Position numbers and translations under genes: made by a program. From Nakamurella sp. PAMC28650 (GTDB lineage: Bacteria > Actinomycetota > Actinomycetes > Mycobacteriales > Nakamurellaceae): a DNA stretch of 64,000 nt. Shown here piece after piece: positions 4,296 to 19,402 of this stretch. Position 1 is the stretch's first letter, and each line of letters opens with the position of its first letter. Below the pieces are notes generated by a model that was not told the DNA's origin, did no database searches, and worked only from the letters and a program-made list of their open reading frames with translations. The DNA lies in the NCBI RefSeq assembly GCF_014303395.1, contig NZ_CP060298.1, forward strand, positions 1,426,001 to 1,490,000, in the 5' to 3' direction.

Positions 4296-5012
4296 AGCCA
4301 GGACGGCGTCGAGCATCGCCGGGGTCAGGCGTCCGGTGAAGGTGTTCTGCTGGCTCACGTGATAGCAGCCGAGCAGAGTCAGCTGCTGTCCGTCCGGCGA
4401 CGTCACCTGGACCTCCGCCCCGTGTCCGAACTTCGGGCGGGGTTTCGGGATCACCCACCCCAGGCCGCTCAACGTCGACAGCAGCGCCTGCCACCCGAAG
4501 CCGCCCAGCACCAGCAGCACGTGGACACTCGGCGTCATCAGGTGGAGTTCGCGTGCCAGGAACGGAGCGCAGCTGTCCCGCTCGGCGGGCGTCGGTGCGT
4601 TGTCGGGCGGCGCGCAGTGCACCGGAGCCGTGATCCGCACGCCCGTCAGCGCCAGACCGTCGTCGATGGCCACCGAATGCGGCTGCGAGGCCAGGCCGGC
4701 CCGGTGCAACGCCGCGAACAGCACGTCCCCGCTGCGGTCACCGGTGAACATCCGGCCGGTGCGGTTGGCGCCGTGCGCGGCGGGGGCCAGCCCGACGATC
4801 AGCAACCAGGCGTCGGCCGGACCGAAGCCCGGTACCGCACGGCCCCAGTAGGTCTCGTCGCGATAGGCCGCCCGCTTCTGGACCGCGACCGACTCGCGCC
4901 AGGCGACCAGGCGCGGGCAGGCCCGGCACTCGCTGACCAGGAGATCGAGCCGACGCATCTCCCCCGCCGTCGAGCTCATCGAGGACACCGCCGATGTATC
5001 CGGGAACACCAC
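4269..5012 (-). CDS. Family 5 uracil-DNA glycosylase (UdgB type)
   Basis: Removes uracil, and in studied relatives also other deaminated bases, from DNA to start base-excision repair. Motif 1 is GLAPAAHGANRTG and motif 2 is YHVSQQNTFTGRLT, the family 5 patterns in which the usual catalytic Asp/Asn of motif 1 is replaced by Ala. Four Cys suited to a 4Fe-4S cluster are present: ECRACPRL near the N-terminus and HCAPPDN...SCAPFL mid-protein. A GGAGG lies six bases before the GTG at 5012 on the minus strand, so I prefer that start (247 residues). A longer GTG start at 5048 is possible. The C-terminal codons are made of a tandem repeat. Confidence 0.88.
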   Translation of the reverse strand: MVFPDTSAVSSMSSTAGEMRRLDLLVSECRACPRLVAWRESVAVQKRAAYRDETYWGRAVPGFGPADAWLLIVGLAPAAHGANRTGRMFTGDRSGDVLFAALHRAGLASQPHSVAIDDGLALTGVRITAPVHCAPPDNAPTPAERDSCAPFLARELHLMTPSVHVLLVLGGFGWQALLSTLSGLGWVIPKPRPKFGHGAEVQVTSPDGQQLTLLGCYHVSQQNTFTGRLTPAMLDAVLARADQLRPR

Positions 5013-12747: not shown

Positions 12748-13095
12748 TCAGTGGATCCGATCCTGCCAGTCCTCCGGCACCCGCCCGGCCGGCCCAGGCG
12801 TGGGTTGGTCCAGGGGGTGACTGGTCGGCGGCGCGAGTTCCGGGCCTTCGTACATCTGGTCGTCGGCGTAGTTGTAGAACCATTCCTCGCCCGGCTCGAA
12901 GCTCCGGATGAACGGGTGCCCGGTCGTCTTCGCGTGAGCGCTCGCGTGCTGGGCCGGCGAGCTGTCGCAGCAGCCGATGTGGCCGCAGTCCGCGCACCGT
13001 CGCAGGTGGAACCACCAGCCGCCGACGGCGTCGCATTCCACGCAGCCGGTCCCGGAGGGCGCGGCCGTGACGTTGATTCCTTCGATCTCGCTCAT
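12748..13095 (-). CDS. UBP-type zinc finger domain protein
   Basis: 115 residues. An N-terminal UBP-type (ZnF-UBP/PAZ) finger occupies about residues 17-80 with ligands GCVECDA, CADCGHIGCCD and HASAHAKTTGHPF. The remaining ~35 residues are Pro-rich. In eukaryotes this fold binds the free C-terminus of ubiquitin. The bacterial role is unknown, and binding a Gly-Gly or similar tail is only an analogy. It is the third gene of a minus-strand operon after the REC-flavoprotein and the cNMP-domain kinase (154-bp gap). Confidence 0.88.
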   Translation of the reverse strand: MSEIEGINVTAAPSGTGCVECDAVGGWWFHLRRCADCGHIGCCDSSPAQHASAHAKTTGHPFIRSFEPGEEWFYNYADDQMYEGPELAPPTSHPLDQPTPGPAGRVPEDWQDRIH

Positions 13096-13249
13096 GTTGC
13101 ATCTCCTGGGTCTCGGCGGTGCTTCGGTTCGCTGCGCATGTGTTCGAACGTCCGTTTCGCTGGCCTGGCGACCGATTTCGGGGCGAATTGGATGCGCCGG
13201 GTCCTTCTGGATGCGCCGGGTAGGGGGTCGGGAGGCGGGGGCAGGTGGG

Positions 13250-14686
13250 TCAGGGGCGTTCGGCGGAGACCAGGGGCAGTCGGATCTGGAATCTGGTGTC
13301 CCCCGGAGCCGGGACGAGCCTCAGATCGCCGTGGTGCTTCTCGACGATGATGCGCCACGAGATGTCCAGACCCAGCCCCGTCCCCTGGCCCACCGGCTTC
13401 GTGGTGAAGAACGGCTCGAAGATGCGGCTCCTGATGTCCTGGGGCACACCTGGCCCGGTGTCGCCGATCTCGACCAGCATCGAATCGTCCGCACGGGCGG
13501 TGCGGATCGTCAGCGTGCCGACCCCGGCCATCGCCTGGATCGCGTTGTCGATGATGTTGGTCCAGACCTGGTTCAGCTCGGAGGCGTAGGCCGAGACCTG
13601 CGGGAGGGTCCGGTCGTAGTCCTTGACCACCCTGATCTGCTTGCCGATCTTGGCGCTCAGCATCAGCAGGGTGGCCTCCAGCAGTTCGTGCACGTCGACC
13701 ACCTGGAACGGAGCGCGATCCAGCTGCGAGTACTGCTTGGCCGATGCCACCAGGGTCGAGATCCGGGTGACCGAGTCCTCGATCTCGTTCATCAGCAGTT
13801 CCGTCTCGACGCTGTAGTTGATCCAGCGGACCGCGCCTTCGAGCACGTCCGGCGCAACCACGGCTTCGACGTCGTCGAGCCAGTCGGCGGCGAGCCCGGC
13901 CTGCACGAACGTCGGGGCGAGGTCCCAGCCGCCGACGATTCCATGATCGGAGAACCACTCGCCGAGTGCGTCCTCGCGGTCGGAGGCCTCCATCGGGCTC
14001 AGGGTCGGGGCCTTGGCCACCTGTTCCACGGCCTTCTCCTGCAGCTTCATCAGCTGCTCCATCGTCATCCGATCCCACGGACCGGCGGCGATCGCGCCCA
14101 GCTTGTGACGCATTCCGGCGACCCGGTCGCGCAGAACCGACGTCGCGCGGACCGCCGCGGCGGCCGGATTGTTGAGCTCGTGGGTCAGTCCGGCCGACAG
14201 AGAACCCAATGCCAGCAGACGTTCTCGCTGATCGGTCACCTGACGCATGTTCTGCTGGCCCCAGAACAGGCCCTCGAGAAGATGCACCGCCATCGGGAAC
14301 CAGTCCTGCATGATCAGAGCGAGGTCCCTGGCGTCCAGCACCAGCAGGCGTGACGGGACGACGACGCGCATCGAGTGGTTGTAGGCCTGCGGAGCACGAT
14401 CGCCCAGGTAGGCCTGCCAGGCGCCCGTGTAGGCACCGACCTGGCCGGTCCTGGTCATCTCGACGTCGCCGCCGCCGATCAGCCGCGACAGCACCAGAGT
14501 GCCCTCGAGCAGCACGTAGAAGCAGGCCGCCGTCTCGCCCTCGGTGTAGACCTGGCCCGGCTCTGCGTGAATGGTGTGCCCGTGCTCGCACAACCATTGC
14601 AACTGCTCGTCATTAAGCTTCTCGAACAGGAAAAGTGTTCGCAGCTCGTCGATGTCACAGGGAACAGGATCGGTGCGGACGCTCAT
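13250..14686 (-). CDS. Cytoplasmic sensor histidine kinase with N-terminal cyclic-nucleotide-binding-type domain
   Basis: 478 residues from the ATG at 14686, which overlaps the TGA of the upstream gene (ATGA). Residues ~10-130 form a cNMP/CRP-like sensor domain (EGETAACFYVLLEGTLVLS). The H-box is LSAGLTHELNNP with phospho-His about residue 169. The N-box is VWTNIIDNAIQAM (~374-386), and G boxes are IGDTGPGVP and GQGTGLGL. There is no membrane segment, so the signal is intracellular. The receiver partner is most likely the REC domain of the gene immediately upstream. Longer in-frame starts exist but lie inside that gene. Confidence 0.9.
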   Translation of the reverse strand: MSVRTDPVPCDIDELRTLFLFEKLNDEQLQWLCEHGHTIHAEPGQVYTEGETAACFYVLLEGTLVLSRLIGGGDVEMTRTGQVGAYTGAWQAYLGDRAPQAYNHSMRVVVPSRLLVLDARDLALIMQDWFPMAVHLLEGLFWGQQNMRQVTDQRERLLALGSLSAGLTHELNNPAAAAVRATSVLRDRVAGMRHKLGAIAAGPWDRMTMEQLMKLQEKAVEQVAKAPTLSPMEASDREDALGEWFSDHGIVGGWDLAPTFVQAGLAADWLDDVEAVVAPDVLEGAVRWINYSVETELLMNEIEDSVTRISTLVASAKQYSQLDRAPFQVVDVHELLEATLLMLSAKIGKQIRVVKDYDRTLPQVSAYASELNQVWTNIIDNAIQAMAGVGTLTIRTARADDSMLVEIGDTGPGVPQDIRSRIFEPFFTTKPVGQGTGLGLDISWRIIVEKHHGDLRLVPAPGDTRFQIRLPLVSAERP

Positions 14687-16374
14687 AGCTTCTCCAGGTA
14701 GCGGTGCACGAACATCACGGCCATGGCGCCCTCGCCGACCGCGGAGGCCACCCGCTTCGCCGACTCGGCTCGCGCGTCGCCGGCCACGAACACCCCGGGC
14801 ACGCTGGTCTCCAGGTGATAGGGCGCCCTGTCCAGTGTCCACCCCGGAGGGCGGCCGTCGGGGGCGAGATCGGGACCGGCCAGCACGAACCCGTGGTCGT
14901 CCCGCAGCACGACGCCGTCGAGCCAGTGCGTGTGCGGGGCCGCCCCGGCGAAGATGAAAAGCCATCCGCTTTCGACGGTCTCGGTCTCGCCGGTGTTGCT
15001 GTCACGCAACGTCAGGCGCTCGAGGTGGTCGGAACCGGCGGCCTCGATCACCTCGCTACCGGTCCGGACGTGGATGTTCGGGACGGTGGCGATCTGCTGG
15101 ATCAGGTAGTACGACATGGAAGCCTCGAGCGAACTCCCCCGCACCACGATCGTCACGTTCCTCGCGGACCTGGCGAGATAGATGGCCGCCTGACCCGCGG
15201 AGTTGGCTCCGCCGACGATGTAGACGTCCTGCGAGGCGCACCGCGGAGCCTCCGTCATCGCGGACCCGTAGAAGACGCCGATGCCCGTGAAGTCCTGCAG
15301 TCCAGGAGCCGTCAGCTGCCGATAGGCGACACCGGTGGCCAGGATGACGGAATGGGCGTCGATCGACGCGCCGTCGGCGAACCGGACGGTGCGGGCCGAC
15401 CCGTTGACCTCGAGCCCGACCACGTCCCGGGTGGTGATCAACTCGGCCCCGAACCTGGTGGCCTGTCTCCGGGCGCGTTCGGTGAGCTGCGCCCCGGAGA
15501 CGCCGTCCGGGAACCCGAGGTAGTTCTCGATGAGCGAGCTCTGGCCGGCCTGTCCGCCCGTCGCGGTGCGCTCCACCAGGACCGTCCGCAGACCTTCGGA
15601 CGCGCCGTAGACCGCGGCGCCGAGCCCGGCCGGCCCTCCGCCGATGACCACGATGTCGTAGAAATTGCCCTCCGGTGACGTGGTCATCCCGACCGTCATG
15701 GCCAGTTCGGTGTCGGTCGGCTGGACGCTGACGGTGCCGTCCGGGGAGATGACGATCGGGAGGCGTGTCGAATCGGTCTCGGCGGCGGCCAGCAGGCGGA
15801 CCCCCTCTGGCTCCTCGCTGGAGAACCACCGGTAGGAGATCTGGTTGCGGGCCAGGAACTCTCGCACCTCCGAGGAGCGGGCCGACCAGCGGTGCCCGAC
15901 GACCTTGATCTCCGAGACCGGCCGGCGGTCGGCGGCCAGCCACGAATCGAGCTGGGCGTCGATGACGGGATAGAACTTCTCCTCCGGCGGATCCCACGGC
16001 TTGAGCAGGTAGTGGTCCAGGTCGACCACGTTGATGGCCTCGATGGCCGCGCCGGTGTCGGCATAGGCGGTCAGCAGCACGCGCCGGGCCCACGGGAAGA
16101 GGTCCATCGCCTGCTCGAGAAATTCGATCCCGCTCATCTGCGGCATCCGGTAGTCGGCCAGCAGGACTGCCACCTCGTCGCCGCGGAGCTTCATCTCCCG
16201 GAGGGCCTCGAGCGCCGCCTCGCCGGATTCGGCGCGGACGATCCGGTATCTCTCGCCGTAGTTTCTGCGCAGGTCCCTGGCGATCGCGCGGGAGACGGCC
16301 GGGTCGTCGTCGACCGTCAGGATGGCCGCGCGCGCCGGCGGGCGGACGCCTGGCTGGACGGCCGGCGAGGTCAC
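14683..16374 (-). CDS. Response regulator fused to a thioredoxin-reductase-like flavoprotein
   Basis: 563 residues. Residues ~15-130 are a REC domain with acidic pocket TVDDDP, phospho-acceptor Asp near 74 (LLADYRMP) and Lys near 125 (LLKPWD). Residues ~155-225 resemble a glutaredoxin-like fold without a CxxC. Residues ~238-563 are the TrxR fold, with FAD loop VVIGGGPAGLGAA and NAD(P)H loop YIVGGANSAGQAA. Where thioredoxin reductases carry the CATC dithiol, this protein reads VFYGSAMTEAPRCAS, so the active-site cysteines are missing. It may therefore be a redox or NAD(P)H sensor, or an oxidase, rather than a disulfide reductase. First gene of the operon with the kinase. Confidence 0.9.
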   Translation of the reverse strand: MTSPAVQPGVRPPARAAILTVDDDPAVSRAIARDLRRNYGERYRIVRAESGEAALEALREMKLRGDEVAVLLADYRMPQMSGIEFLEQAMDLFPWARRVLLTAYADTGAAIEAINVVDLDHYLLKPWDPPEEKFYPVIDAQLDSWLAADRRPVSEIKVVGHRWSARSSEVREFLARNQISYRWFSSEEPEGVRLLAAAETDSTRLPIVISPDGTVSVQPTDTELAMTVGMTTSPEGNFYDIVVIGGGPAGLGAAVYGASEGLRTVLVERTATGGQAGQSSLIENYLGFPDGVSGAQLTERARRQATRFGAELITTRDVVGLEVNGSARTVRFADGASIDAHSVILATGVAYRQLTAPGLQDFTGIGVFYGSAMTEAPRCASQDVYIVGGANSAGQAAIYLARSARNVTIVVRGSSLEASMSYYLIQQIATVPNIHVRTGSEVIEAAGSDHLERLTLRDSNTGETETVESGWLFIFAGAAPHTHWLDGVVLRDDHGFVLAGPDLAPDGRPPGWTLDRAPYHLETSVPGVFVAGDARAESAKRVASAVGEGAMAVMFVHRYLEKL

Positions 16375-16436: not shown

Positions 16437-17591
16437 TCAGGCGCGGTCCTGACGCGGGAGCCAGACTTCGCGCAGCAGGAGTTGCAGCGCCGCGGCCACC
16501 GGGATCGCAACCAGCGCACCGAGCACCCCGAGCAGGGCCCCACCGACCAGCACCGCGACCACCGTCACCAACGCGGGGACCTCGACGGCCCGTCCGATGA
16601 TCCTCGGCACCAGCAGGTAGTCCTCCAGGAGCCGGTAGACGACGAAGAACGCCACCGTGCCCACCGCCACCGGCAGCGACACCGTCAGGCAGACGAGTGC
16701 GACGACCACGCCGGCGATGGTCGAACCCACTACCGGGACGAGGTCCAGCAGGGCGACCATGATGGACAGCAGGAAGGCGTACGGCACTCCGAAGGCCAGC
16801 AGCCAACCGAAGGTCAGCGCACCGGCGATCACCGAGATGACGAGGTTGCCCAGCACGTATCCGCCGACCTTGTCGGCGATGTCGTCCCCGATCAGGATGG
16901 CGCGCGGTCGCCGGCTGTGGGGGAAGAGCCGGTAGGCCAGCCGCCGGATCCGGGGCATGTCGGCGAGGAAGTAGGCCGTCAGGACGAGCACGATCAGGGT
17001 GTCGCTGACGGCGCCGAACACGGCGACCCCCGCGCCCACGAGCCCGTTGGCGATGGTCGAGGACGACGTCTTGAGCAGCGCCTGGATCTTGGTCTCGAGC
17101 CCGAACTGGTCGTTGATCCGGCCCAGCAGGGAGTGGTGGTCGTTGGCCTGCTGCACCCAGATCGGGATGCTCTTGACCAGCGACGACCCCTGGCTGACCA
17201 GGGCCGGGATGGCGGCCGCGAGGAACCCGCCGATGATCGCCAGGATGACGACGAGGACGATCACCACGGAGGCCCAGCGTGGTAGCCGCCGCCGCACCAG
17301 GAACTTGACGGCCGGTTCCAGCCCGACGGCCAGGAACACCGCGAGGCCGATCAGGATCAGGATCGGCCTGGCCGTGTCGAGCAGCAGGATGACCCCGTAC
17401 GTGACGGCCACGCCGGCCGCCCCGAACATGCCGAAGAAGAACGGTGATCGACGGTCGAACGGCTTTCCCGGCCGGCCCATCGGTTGGTCGTCGGTGCTCA
17501 TCCGGGCGGCCGCGTACTCGGCGGGAAGCAGGTGCTCGCCGGGTTCCGGCGTGTGCTGTGGGCTCGCACCGACGTTCGTGGACTCGCTCAT
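16437..17591 (-). CDS. AI-2E family transporter (PerM/YdiK type)
   Basis: 384 residues from the ATG at 17591, which has GGAG five bases upstream. Longer starts lie in the divergent promoter region. Eight or so hydrophobic helices flank a soluble insert (WVQQANDHHSLLGRINDQFG), the family layout, and the C-terminal motif PVVGSTIAGVVVALVC is typical. Substrates proposed for the family include autoinducer-2 and Na+/Li+ by antiport, so the exact cargo is open. It is divergent from the DNA polymerase gene. Confidence 0.88.
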   Translation of the reverse strand: MSESTNVGASPQHTPEPGEHLLPAEYAAARMSTDDQPMGRPGKPFDRRSPFFFGMFGAAGVAVTYGVILLLDTARPILILIGLAVFLAVGLEPAVKFLVRRRLPRWASVVIVLVVILAIIGGFLAAAIPALVSQGSSLVKSIPIWVQQANDHHSLLGRINDQFGLETKIQALLKTSSSTIANGLVGAGVAVFGAVSDTLIVLVLTAYFLADMPRIRRLAYRLFPHSRRPRAILIGDDIADKVGGYVLGNLVISVIAGALTFGWLLAFGVPYAFLLSIMVALLDLVPVVGSTIAGVVVALVCLTVSLPVAVGTVAFFVVYRLLEDYLLVPRIIGRAVEVPALVTVVAVLVGGALLGVLGALVAIPVAAALQLLLREVWLPRQDRA

Positions 17592-17728
17592 CATGTCTCC
17601 GACCTCGTGGAATGTGGAACGACCAGCAGTACCCGTTGCATAGCATCGCCAACCATCTGTCACCGGGATGGACGCCGCGGGCGGGCGCCGGACGCCGGCG
17701 GCCCGGGACGGCCTGCGCACACGGGACA

Positions 17729-19402
17729 ATGAAGGGTGTGATCGTCGCCCTGGCGCCGGCCGGTCCGTCCTGGCAGGTGCAGACCCTCGCCGGCGACGGG
17801 TCCCCGCTGGCCGAACCCGAACTGGTGAAGACGGCAGATGCGTTGCGGCGCTGGGAATCCGACGGGACCCGCTGGGTGTGGGACACCACCGAGCCGATCT
17901 ATGCGCCGTTGCTGGCGGCCGGCTTCACACCCTCCCGATGCCACGACGTCAGTCTGACGGAGAAGATCCTGCTCGGCCGGGCCGGGCGCCACGGGGAGCC
18001 CTGGTCCGCGGCAGCCGTCCATGCGCGCCGCCATTCACTCCCTGTTCCACCCGACCGCGTCGGCGAACCGACCGTCGGCGCGACCGCCCGGCACCCGGCG
18101 CTGTTCGAGTCCGGTCCGGGCGCCGATGCGGTCGATCCGCTGACCGCCGTCCGTGAGGCGTACGCGGACCAGGTGAGGCGAACCGGGTCGAACAATCCGC
18201 TGAAGTTGTTGCTGGCGGCCGAGTCCGCCGCCGCACTGGCCGCCGTCGAGATGGGTCTGATCGGTCTCCCGCTGCGGGCCGACGTACTGGATCGGATCCT
18301 GACCGGGGCGCTCGGGCCGCGCCCGCCGACCGGGGTCCGACCTGAGCGCCTGACTGCCCTCGCCGCCCAGATCGTCGAGGCCTTCGGCAGCCCGGTCAAT
18401 CCCGATTCGGCGGCCGATCTGCGGGCCGCGTACCAGCGGGCCGGCTTCGAGATCGAGAACACGCGCTCCTGGGTGATCCGGGAGATCGACCATCCGGCGA
18501 CGGCCCCGGTTCTGGCCTACAAGGAACTCTCCCGGCTGTGGACCGCCAACGGGTGGAGCTGGCTGGCGGAATGGGTGCGCGACGGGCGTTTTCACGCCGG
18601 CTACCTGCCCGGTGGTGTGGTCTCCGGCCGATGGGCCGCCAGAGGCGGTGGCGCCCTGCAGATCCCGAAGCTGGTGCGGCAGGCGGTGATCGCGGAGCCC
18701 GGGCGCACCTTCGTGGTGGCCGACGCGGCGCAGCTGGAACCCAGGGTGCTGGCCGCGATCTCACGAGATCCGCTGCTGGCGCGCTTCTCCCAGCAGAACG
18801 ACCTCTACACCGCACTCGCCGACGACGGCTTCGGCGGCGATCGGGCCCACGCGAAGATGGCCATGCTGGGGGCGATGTACGGGGCGACCTCCGGCGAGGC
18901 CGGCCGACTGCTGCCCACCTTGCGGCGCCGCTACCCGGTCGCGATGGCCTGCGTCGAGGACGCGGCCCGGCAGGGCGAGCTCGGCGGGGTCGTCGCCTCC
19001 GTCCTCGGAAGGACCAGCCCCCGGCCCGGACCGGACTGGTGGGACCTGCTGCAGGCCGGGTCGCTACCCGATGCCACCCCGGCCCAGGAGCGTCGGGCGC
19101 GGCAGATCGCCAGGGACCGCGGACGGTTCACCCGGAACTTCGTGGTGCAGGGGTCGGCCGCCGATTGGGCCGGGGTCTGGCTCTCCGGGCTGCGCCGGGA
19201 CCTGCGGAGCGTTCCGGGGGCCGAGCTGGTGTTCTTCCAGCACGACGAGCTGGTCGTGCACTGCCCGGTCGAATCAGCGCAGGAGGTGGCTTCCCTGACG
19301 GTCGCGGCCGCCGAGTCGGCCCGTGACCTGGTGTTTCCGGGTAGCAAGGTGGCCACCCCGGTCCGACCGGTGCTGGTCGACTGCTACGCAGATGCCAAGT
19401 AG
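17729..19402 (+). CDS. Family A DNA polymerase-like protein (bifunctional 3'-5' exonuclease/polymerase type)
   Basis: 557 residues from ATG 17729 (a GTG at 17738 is also possible). It lacks the 5'-nuclease domain of PolA. The polymerase motifs are visible but altered: motif A is VVADAAQLEPRVLA where PolA has D-Y-S-Q-I-E-L-R, motif B is RAHAKMAMLGAMYG, and motif C keeps HDELVVHCP. The fingers template-binding block SGRWAARGGG is present. The N-terminal exonuclease-like region has few recognisable acidic motifs. Such genes are widespread in actinobacteria as a second polA-like gene of uncertain duty. Confidence 0.85.
   Translation: MKGVIVALAPAGPSWQVQTLAGDGSPLAEPELVKTADALRRWESDGTRWVWDTTEPIYAPLLAAGFTPSRCHDVSLTEKILLGRAGRHGEPWSAAAVHARRHSLPVPPDRVGEPTVGATARHPALFESGPGADAVDPLTAVREAYADQVRRTGSNNPLKLLLAAESAAALAAVEMGLIGLPLRADVLDRILTGALGPRPPTGVRPERLTALAAQIVEAFGSPVNPDSAADLRAAYQRAGFEIENTRSWVIREIDHPATAPVLAYKELSRLWTANGWSWLAEWVRDGRFHAGYLPGGVVSGRWAARGGGALQIPKLVRQAVIAEPGRTFVVADAAQLEPRVLAAISRDPLLARFSQQNDLYTALADDGFGGDRAHAKMAMLGAMYGATSGEAGRLLPTLRRRYPVAMACVEDAARQGELGGVVASVLGRTSPRPGPDWWDLLQAGSLPDATPAQERRARQIARDRGRFTRNFVVQGSAADWAGVWLSGLRRDLRSVPGAELVFFQHDELVVHCPVESAQEVASLTVAAAESARDLVFPGSKVATPVRPVLVDCYADAK

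Follow-up and report, generated by a model that had tools for sequence, protein, structure and literature searches.

A putative kinase-controlled flavoprotein of the thioredoxin reductase fold that lacks both thiol pairs, encoded beside a UBP-type zinc finger in Nakamurella

The stretch of DNA analysed here, hereafter the window, comprises 64,000 nucleotides (nt) of the genome of Nakamurella sp. PAMC28650 (NZ_CP060298.1, positions 1,426,001 to 1,490,000) and harbours on its minus strand three genes that encode a flavoprotein (FL), a cytosolic histidine kinase (HK) and a UBP-type zinc finger protein (ZF). FL joins a receiver (REC) domain to a glutaredoxin (Grx)-like domain and a FAD/NAD(P)H module of the thioredoxin reductase (TrxR) type, and both CxxC thiol pairs of this body have been lost. 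The reading that we favour, with confidence that is evenly balanced, is that FL and HK form a two-component system with a NAD(P)H/FAD redox flavoprotein as its output, in which electrons leave the flavin by a route other than thiols; its basis is the linkage of the genes, the lost motifs, the intact residues of the phosphorelay and the decay of the receiver in a kinase-less clade. An earlier note, made from the sequence alone, had described three open reading frames with an ATGA overlap between FL and HK, all of which are present in the sequence:

14683..16374, minus strand: FL, REC–glutaredoxin-like–TrxR-like flavoprotein, 563 amino acids, GTG start (Pfam PF00072 and PF07992)
13250..14686, minus strand: HK, histidine kinase with a cyclic nucleotide monophosphate (cNMP) domain, 478 amino acids (Pfam; AlphaFold2 (AF2) model, mean pLDDT 81.5)
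12748..13095, minus strand: ZF, UBP-type zinc finger protein, 115 amino acids (Pfam PF02148; homologue 2ida)
14683..14686, minus strand: ATGA in which FL stops and HK starts (sequence; 66 of 79 relatives likewise overlap by 4 nt)
13096..13249, minus strand: gap of 154 nt between HK and ZF (a 4-nt overlap in 60 of the 69 relatives that have ZF after HK)

Domains and thiol content of the flavoprotein

Pfam assigns to FL a Response_reg domain (residues 18–130, E 9e-15) and a Pyr_redox_2 domain (residues 239–549, E 2e-29) and finds no receiver domain in HK, which bears out the earlier picture of a kinase devoid of a receiver next to a protein that combines a receiver with a TrxR-type fold. Asp74, previously proposed as the phospho-acceptor, takes that position in the alignment together with D23, D24, T102 and K125. 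The elements of FL are the following:

15982..16326, minus strand: receiver domain, about residues 17–131, with D23, D24, D74, T102 and K125 (Pfam; alignment)
16153..16155, minus strand: codon of Asp74, predicted phospho-acceptor (alignment columns)
15688..15912, minus strand: glutaredoxin-like domain, about residues 155–229 (order of AF2 elements; alignment with the WCxxC-bearing Grx–TrxR fusions of loci L205–L209)
15874..15888, minus strand: WSARS, residues 163–167, where relatives carry WCxxC (alignment)
14686..15666, minus strand: TrxR-like FAD/NAD(P)H module, residues 237–563 (Pfam; VIA-align)
15238..15267, minus strand: GSAMTEAPRC, residues 370–379, in place of CATCDG and including C379 (alignment)

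The CxxC position of the TrxR module reads GSAMTEA, and C379 is the sole cysteine of the entire protein; with only one cysteine present, a hidden dithiol in the FL chain, which the earlier note had named as a possible objection, is ruled out, and the claim of that note that FL is not an ordinary thioredoxin reductase holds. The glutaredoxin-like domain (residues 155–229) and its lost CxxC had been overlooked. In an alignment of 81 close sequences Ser164 and Ser167 are each kept in 80 and C379 in all 81; several wider members of the group in which FL is paired with HK lack C379 (for example L132, L133, L134, L137, L145 and L155–L158).

A protein in which a cNMP domain is joined to a TrxR-like body, ATII-TrxR, has been purified; it bound FAD and was reported to reduce 5,5′-dithiobis(2-nitrobenzoic acid) (DTNB) and thioredoxin (PMC6544261). 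In the accessible part of that report a CxxC is not described, and the authors proposed Cys206–Cys223 and Cys376–Cys467 as redox centres. Judged by its architecture and by its resemblance to a protein of Cupriavidus, ATII-TrxR probably belongs to the same family as FL; two Cupriavidus members of the family, other than the ATII homologue, have no CxxC at the TrxR site. These observations bear on the possibility that FL continues to act as a disulfide or thioredoxin reductase, in which C379 together with a partner cysteine supplied in trans by thioredoxin or ZF would replace the CxxC. The invariance of C379 among the 81 closest sequences, the reported activities of ATII-TrxR and the consecutive trxA, ZF and cNMP–TrxR genes on a Rhodococcus plasmid (see below) speak for such an enzyme, but C379 is lost in several other members, FL of the window offers no second cysteine, and the genome already has its own canonical CATCDG thioredoxin reductase adjoining a WCGPC thioredoxin (L215), so that FL is not needed as a TrxR. 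We consider a reductase completed in trans unlikely. In the two-component reading, electrons would leave the FL flavin by another route, because both CxxC pairs are gone.

Comparison of the AF2 model of FL (moderate, with mean pLDDT 74.5 and pTM 0.49) by VIA-align gives a match to L. lactis TrxR (5mh4) with Z 32.0 and a root-mean-square deviation (rmsd) of 2.1 over 296 residues. This enzyme is among the best matches of FL, its flavin-reducing form with an rmsd of 2.1 and its flavin-oxidising form with 7.0; the better fit to the flavin-reducing form would suit a protein that has no further need of the conformation facing the thiols, although a model of this quality cannot carry such a conclusion. 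FL shares the FAD/NAD(P)H fold of low-molecular-weight TrxB (Z about 32, ~25–34% identity), but unlike TrxB it has lost the CxxC, and the NADPH 2′-phosphate motif HRRxxxR is replaced by VRGSSLE, a change that suggests relaxed coenzyme use or use of NADH. The NCBIfam TrxB profile scores 210 on FL against a cut-off of 343, and the listed NCBIfam matches of FL and HK all stay below their cut-offs. The FAD and NAD(P)H binding motifs and a KRVASAVGEGA signature rank among the best-conserved parts of FL in the alignment. The TrxR-type ferredoxin/flavodoxin-NADP reductase fold matches with Z ~25, and FL stops at residue 563 without the C-terminal flavin-covering extension.

The top Foldseek match of the model is AhpF (591 columns). 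AhpF and the Grx–TrxR fusions resemble FL in placing a thioredoxin-fold domain before the TrxR module; they keep the TrxR CxxC, and most of them the thioredoxin-fold CxxC as well, whereas FL has neither but carries a receiver. These fusions (L205–L211, ~410–450 amino acids, from other lineages of the phylum) mostly have both CxxC pairs intact: L205–L209 retain WCxxC plus CATCDG, and L210 and L211 are more divergent. They make a useful outgroup and possibly represent a self-contained disulfide reductase. Within residues 155–229 of FL the AF2 model has strands at 156–160, 181–185, 207–209 and 215–217 and helices at 165–176, 189–197 and 221–227, i.e. the glutaredoxin-type order beta-alpha-beta-alpha-beta-beta-alpha, and P206, the candidate for the cis-Pro of that fold, is invariant in the close alignment; Pfam gives no glutaredoxin match for FL, and structure searches, run with the whole model and not with this domain alone, were dominated by TrxR.

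Pairing of the flavoprotein with its kinase

A search of genome contigs for FL homologues returned 585 relatives, which rules out a unit private to the Nakamurella genome. In the close set, defined as the 80 best named FL loci, all from Actinobacteria, HK lies directly after FL at 79 of 79 testable loci, the contig of the 80th ending inside HK. HK adjoins FL also in Deinococcus aetherius, Gloeothece verrucosa and Caballeronia, with plasmids among these settings, and in Nostoc edaphicum the two genes are ~3 kb apart; FL together with HK is thus found in Cyanobacteria, Deinococcus and Burkholderiales besides Actinobacteria. That FL and HK form a dedicated pair, as the earlier note had surmised, is well supported, and since the neighbourhood is conserved across genera, and FL–HK across phyla, the arrangement of the three genes is not due to chance.

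All 116 FLs that lie beside an HK preserve the full set of receiver residues (D, D/E, D, T, K). Of the 33 that do not lie beside one, three preserve it, and of these three one is located at a contig end and another ~3 kb from an HK. A tree built from the TrxR part groups nearly all kinase-less FLs in a single clade; the receiver residues have degenerated there in diverse ways, a pattern that fits relaxed selection after loss of the kinase. The members of this clade (L131, L139–L143, L159–L179 and relatives) have the phospho-aspartate or other key residues replaced and thus carry pseudo-receivers on the same flavoprotein.

Other relatives dispense with HK in a different manner. In L124, L126, L127 and L128 a cNMP domain is fused straight onto the same Grx-like/TrxR-like body, which lacks CxxC in the fused relatives that were examined (L124–L129 and L148). 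These proteins, named by NCBI 'cyclic nucleotide-binding domain-containing thioredoxin-disulfide reductase', share with FL the CxxC-less body and differ from it in the fused cNMP domain and in the absence of kinase and receiver. There may accordingly be two wirings on one theme, in which a cNMP-fold sensor acts on the flavoprotein either by fusion or through phosphotransfer from HK to REC; a direct fusion is what would be expected from such control.

An alternative reverses the flow of information and casts FL as a sensor of NAD(P)H/NAD(P)+ or of the flavin redox state that sets the activity of HK or the flow of phosphate, with the readout elsewhere, for example in ZF. Loss of the dithiols would remove ordinary turnover and leave the FAD and NAD(P)H motifs in place, and the two or three HKs that stand behind one FL at several loci (L130, L193, L195, L197 and L198) would fit an integrating hub. 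Yet REC is the receiving end in two-component logic, and because the cNMP fusions have no kinase, the flavoprotein itself must be the output there; FL as a sensor therefore appears doubtful to us.

The sensory domain of the kinase and the zinc finger

HK has a HATPase_c domain (E 3e-22) and a weak HisKA match with H169 in THELNNP. The catalytic residues of its H, N, G1, F and G2 boxes are invariant in a 30-member alignment (H169, N377/N381, D409/G411/G413, F426/F427 and G435/G437/G439), and the AF2 model places H169 in a long helix, 131–201, paired with a second helix, 279–322, with a helical insert between them. Its elements are:

14180..14182, minus strand: codon of His169 (THELNNP), predicted autophosphorylation site (invariant in alignment)
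13271..13582, minus strand: HATPase_c domain, residues 369–472 (Pfam)
14267..14644, minus strand: cNMP-like sensory domain, about residues 15–140, with a degenerate phosphate-binding cassette (Pfam; alignment)

The cNMP_binding match (E 8e-6, 26.1 bits) lies just below the Pfam cut-off of 27.5. Neither Glu nor Arg is found at the phosphate-binding cassette positions among 80 aligned kinases, and a class III cyclase (PF00211) was not found in the Nakamurella genome by a search that was positive in five of the control genomes. For these two reasons cAMP is an unlikely ligand and was rejected as the input of HK, and the cyclic-nucleotide signal suggested by the earlier note is not supported; the CRP-type protein DNR gives the best PDB match to the domain by sequence. 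All kinases of the 30-member alignment have Cys10 and Cys33 in the sensory domain, two residues that could conceivably constitute a redox switch or a metal site. Six loci in five genomes of related lineages, with two or three HKs behind FL, have a diadenylate cyclase-type gene (DAC, PF02457) downstream of the kinases (L216:7082-7687, L217:7072-7662, L130:8054-8659, L218, L219 and L220, two of the loci being from one genome), which hints at c-di-AMP as the kinase input in those lineages. The Nakamurella genome has one DAC gene, away from FL.

ZF matches zf-UBP with E 2e-14 (53.8 bits against a cut-off of 22.7), conserves the Cys/His zinc ligands C18, C21, C34, C37, C42, C43, H50, H54 and H60, and has as its closest solved structure the bacterial protein 2ida (E 5e-24), a close homologue whose molecule name in the record, 'Hypothetical protein', gives no function. 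The UBP zinc finger is known mainly from eukaryotic ubiquitin biology. H39 of ZF aligns with R221 of USP5, the Arg that holds the C-terminal carboxylate of ubiquitin, and 68 of 70 family members have His here; binding of the ubiquitin-tail type, anticipated in the earlier note, is not supported.

The place of ZF in the unit is supported within limits. ZF follows HK in 69 of 80 close loci and also adjoins HK-free forms of the flavoprotein (L127, L128, L149, L151, L173 and L212), but it is missing from many of the wider FL–HK pairs. A tblastn hint of a ZF fused to the flavoprotein in L127 was rejected, ZF being a separate adjacent gene in another frame. In a sample of 296 genomes of the phylum with 90 UBP fingers compared, 22 of the fingers have an FL-family gene no more than 10 kb away, and ZF and the FL family co-occur in 47 genomes (67 with ZF, 61 with FL; Fisher p 3e-26, uncorrected for kinship and genome size). 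The Nakamurella genome has a second UBP zinc finger (G000:C1:695163-695351; L214, about 4664-4852) beside an apparent sodium/proton antiporter gene, and UBP fingers occur near apparent genes of this kind also in L216 and L220.

Some of the neighbourhoods contain stress genes. On plasmid pDK4 of Rhodococcus sp. DK176 (L151:875-6708) the order is DnaJ-like, CbpM, ClpB, TrxA, ZF and cNMP-flavoprotein, followed by DUF1931, a plasmid-borne proteostasis cluster that contains the cNMP-flavoprotein type; a Paraburkholderia plasmid has flavoprotein, ZF, Clp ATPase, Hsp20 and HdeD, and at Streptomyces FL loci a universal stress protein gene is often found upstream. Such surroundings suggest a link to stress and protein quality, but the cases are a handful and the Streptomyces neighbours may reflect shared ancestry. 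The accessible part of the Streptomyces OsdR paper names no such flavoprotein. In the window itself a gene for an AI-2E-type transporter-like membrane protein (16437-17729, minus strand) ends 62 nt upstream of FL and, being on the same strand, may be cotranscribed with it in the Nakamurella genome; at 17444-19402 on the plus strand lies a 652-amino-acid open reading frame that resembles family A DNA polymerase.

Proposed mechanism and its significance

In the mechanism that we favour, soluble HK would sense an intracellular condition, other than cAMP, via its degenerate cNMP fold, autophosphorylate on His169 and pass the phosphate to Asp74 of FL. Once phosphorylated, the receiver would shift relative to the FAD/NAD(P)H module and the thiol-less glutaredoxin-like domain, and this shift would switch either the reduction of FAD by hydride from NAD(P)H or the approach of an acceptor to the reduced flavin, whose electrons might go to a docked protein, a quinone, oxygen or another acceptor. 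ZF would accompany the flavoprotein as an accessory or as a targeting partner. Several points weigh against this scheme: phosphotransfer and FL activity are predictions from sequence; the packing of the FL domains is uninformative because the AF2 model is only moderate; and ZF is absent beside many more distant FL–HK pairs. Moreover, the kinase-less FLs form essentially one clade, and the co-variation of receiver and kinase hence rests on few independent events and is statistically close to a single one, with too few pairs for significance in an independent-pairs test on the tree.

That FL is a catalytically dead scaffold, with REC and two redox-dead domains as a phosphorylation-controlled adaptor, would agree with the loss of both active-site dithiols from folds that are retained but is very improbable, given that the FAD and NAD(P)H motifs and KRVASAVGEGA are highly conserved, unlike in a scaffold past cofactor binding. 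The favoured reading can be extended to a widespread bacterial class of kinase-controlled, thiol-free NAD(P)H flavoproteins whose reduced flavin acts on ZF or on a client recruited by ZF, providing post-translational redox control of protein quality under stress, and which are elsewhere driven by a fused cNMP-fold sensor; we regard this extension as rather improbable.

Few response regulators have an enzyme output beyond the cyclic-di-GMP, phosphatase and methylesterase types, and understanding of them is poor. FL belongs to a recorded type, the REC–TrxR combination with the same architecture having been listed as 'Mycobacterium-like' in a census of archaeal two-component systems (PMC5847659). 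In its available part that census names the architecture only and says nothing on kinase pairing, on the zinc finger, on a glutaredoxin-like domain or on the loss of the dithiols. The earlier note knew of no experimental description; in the open-licence literature we likewise found no functional study of the three-gene set, of REC–TrxR with a UBP finger or of a bacterial UBP-type zinc finger, but REC–TrxR proteins are on record as above and a cNMP–TrxR has been purified and reported active (PMC6544261). The enzyme-output architecture was thus already recorded, and it is the double thiol loss, the co-dependence with the kinase and the zinc finger link that are made explicit here.

A thiol-less TrxR fold is conserved in hundreds of genomes of several phyla, where it goes together with a kinase of its own and, in many cases, with a zinc finger. 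The family is often annotated as 'FAD-dependent oxidoreductase' or as thioredoxin-disulfide reductase, the second name being misleading for it. The set of FL, HK and ZF suggests signalling that acts directly on a redox protein and not via the switching of genes, and if this is true, a kinase-gated flavoprotein would allow the control of NAD(P)H chemistry by phosphorylation to be tested directly in Streptomyces or Rhodococcus.

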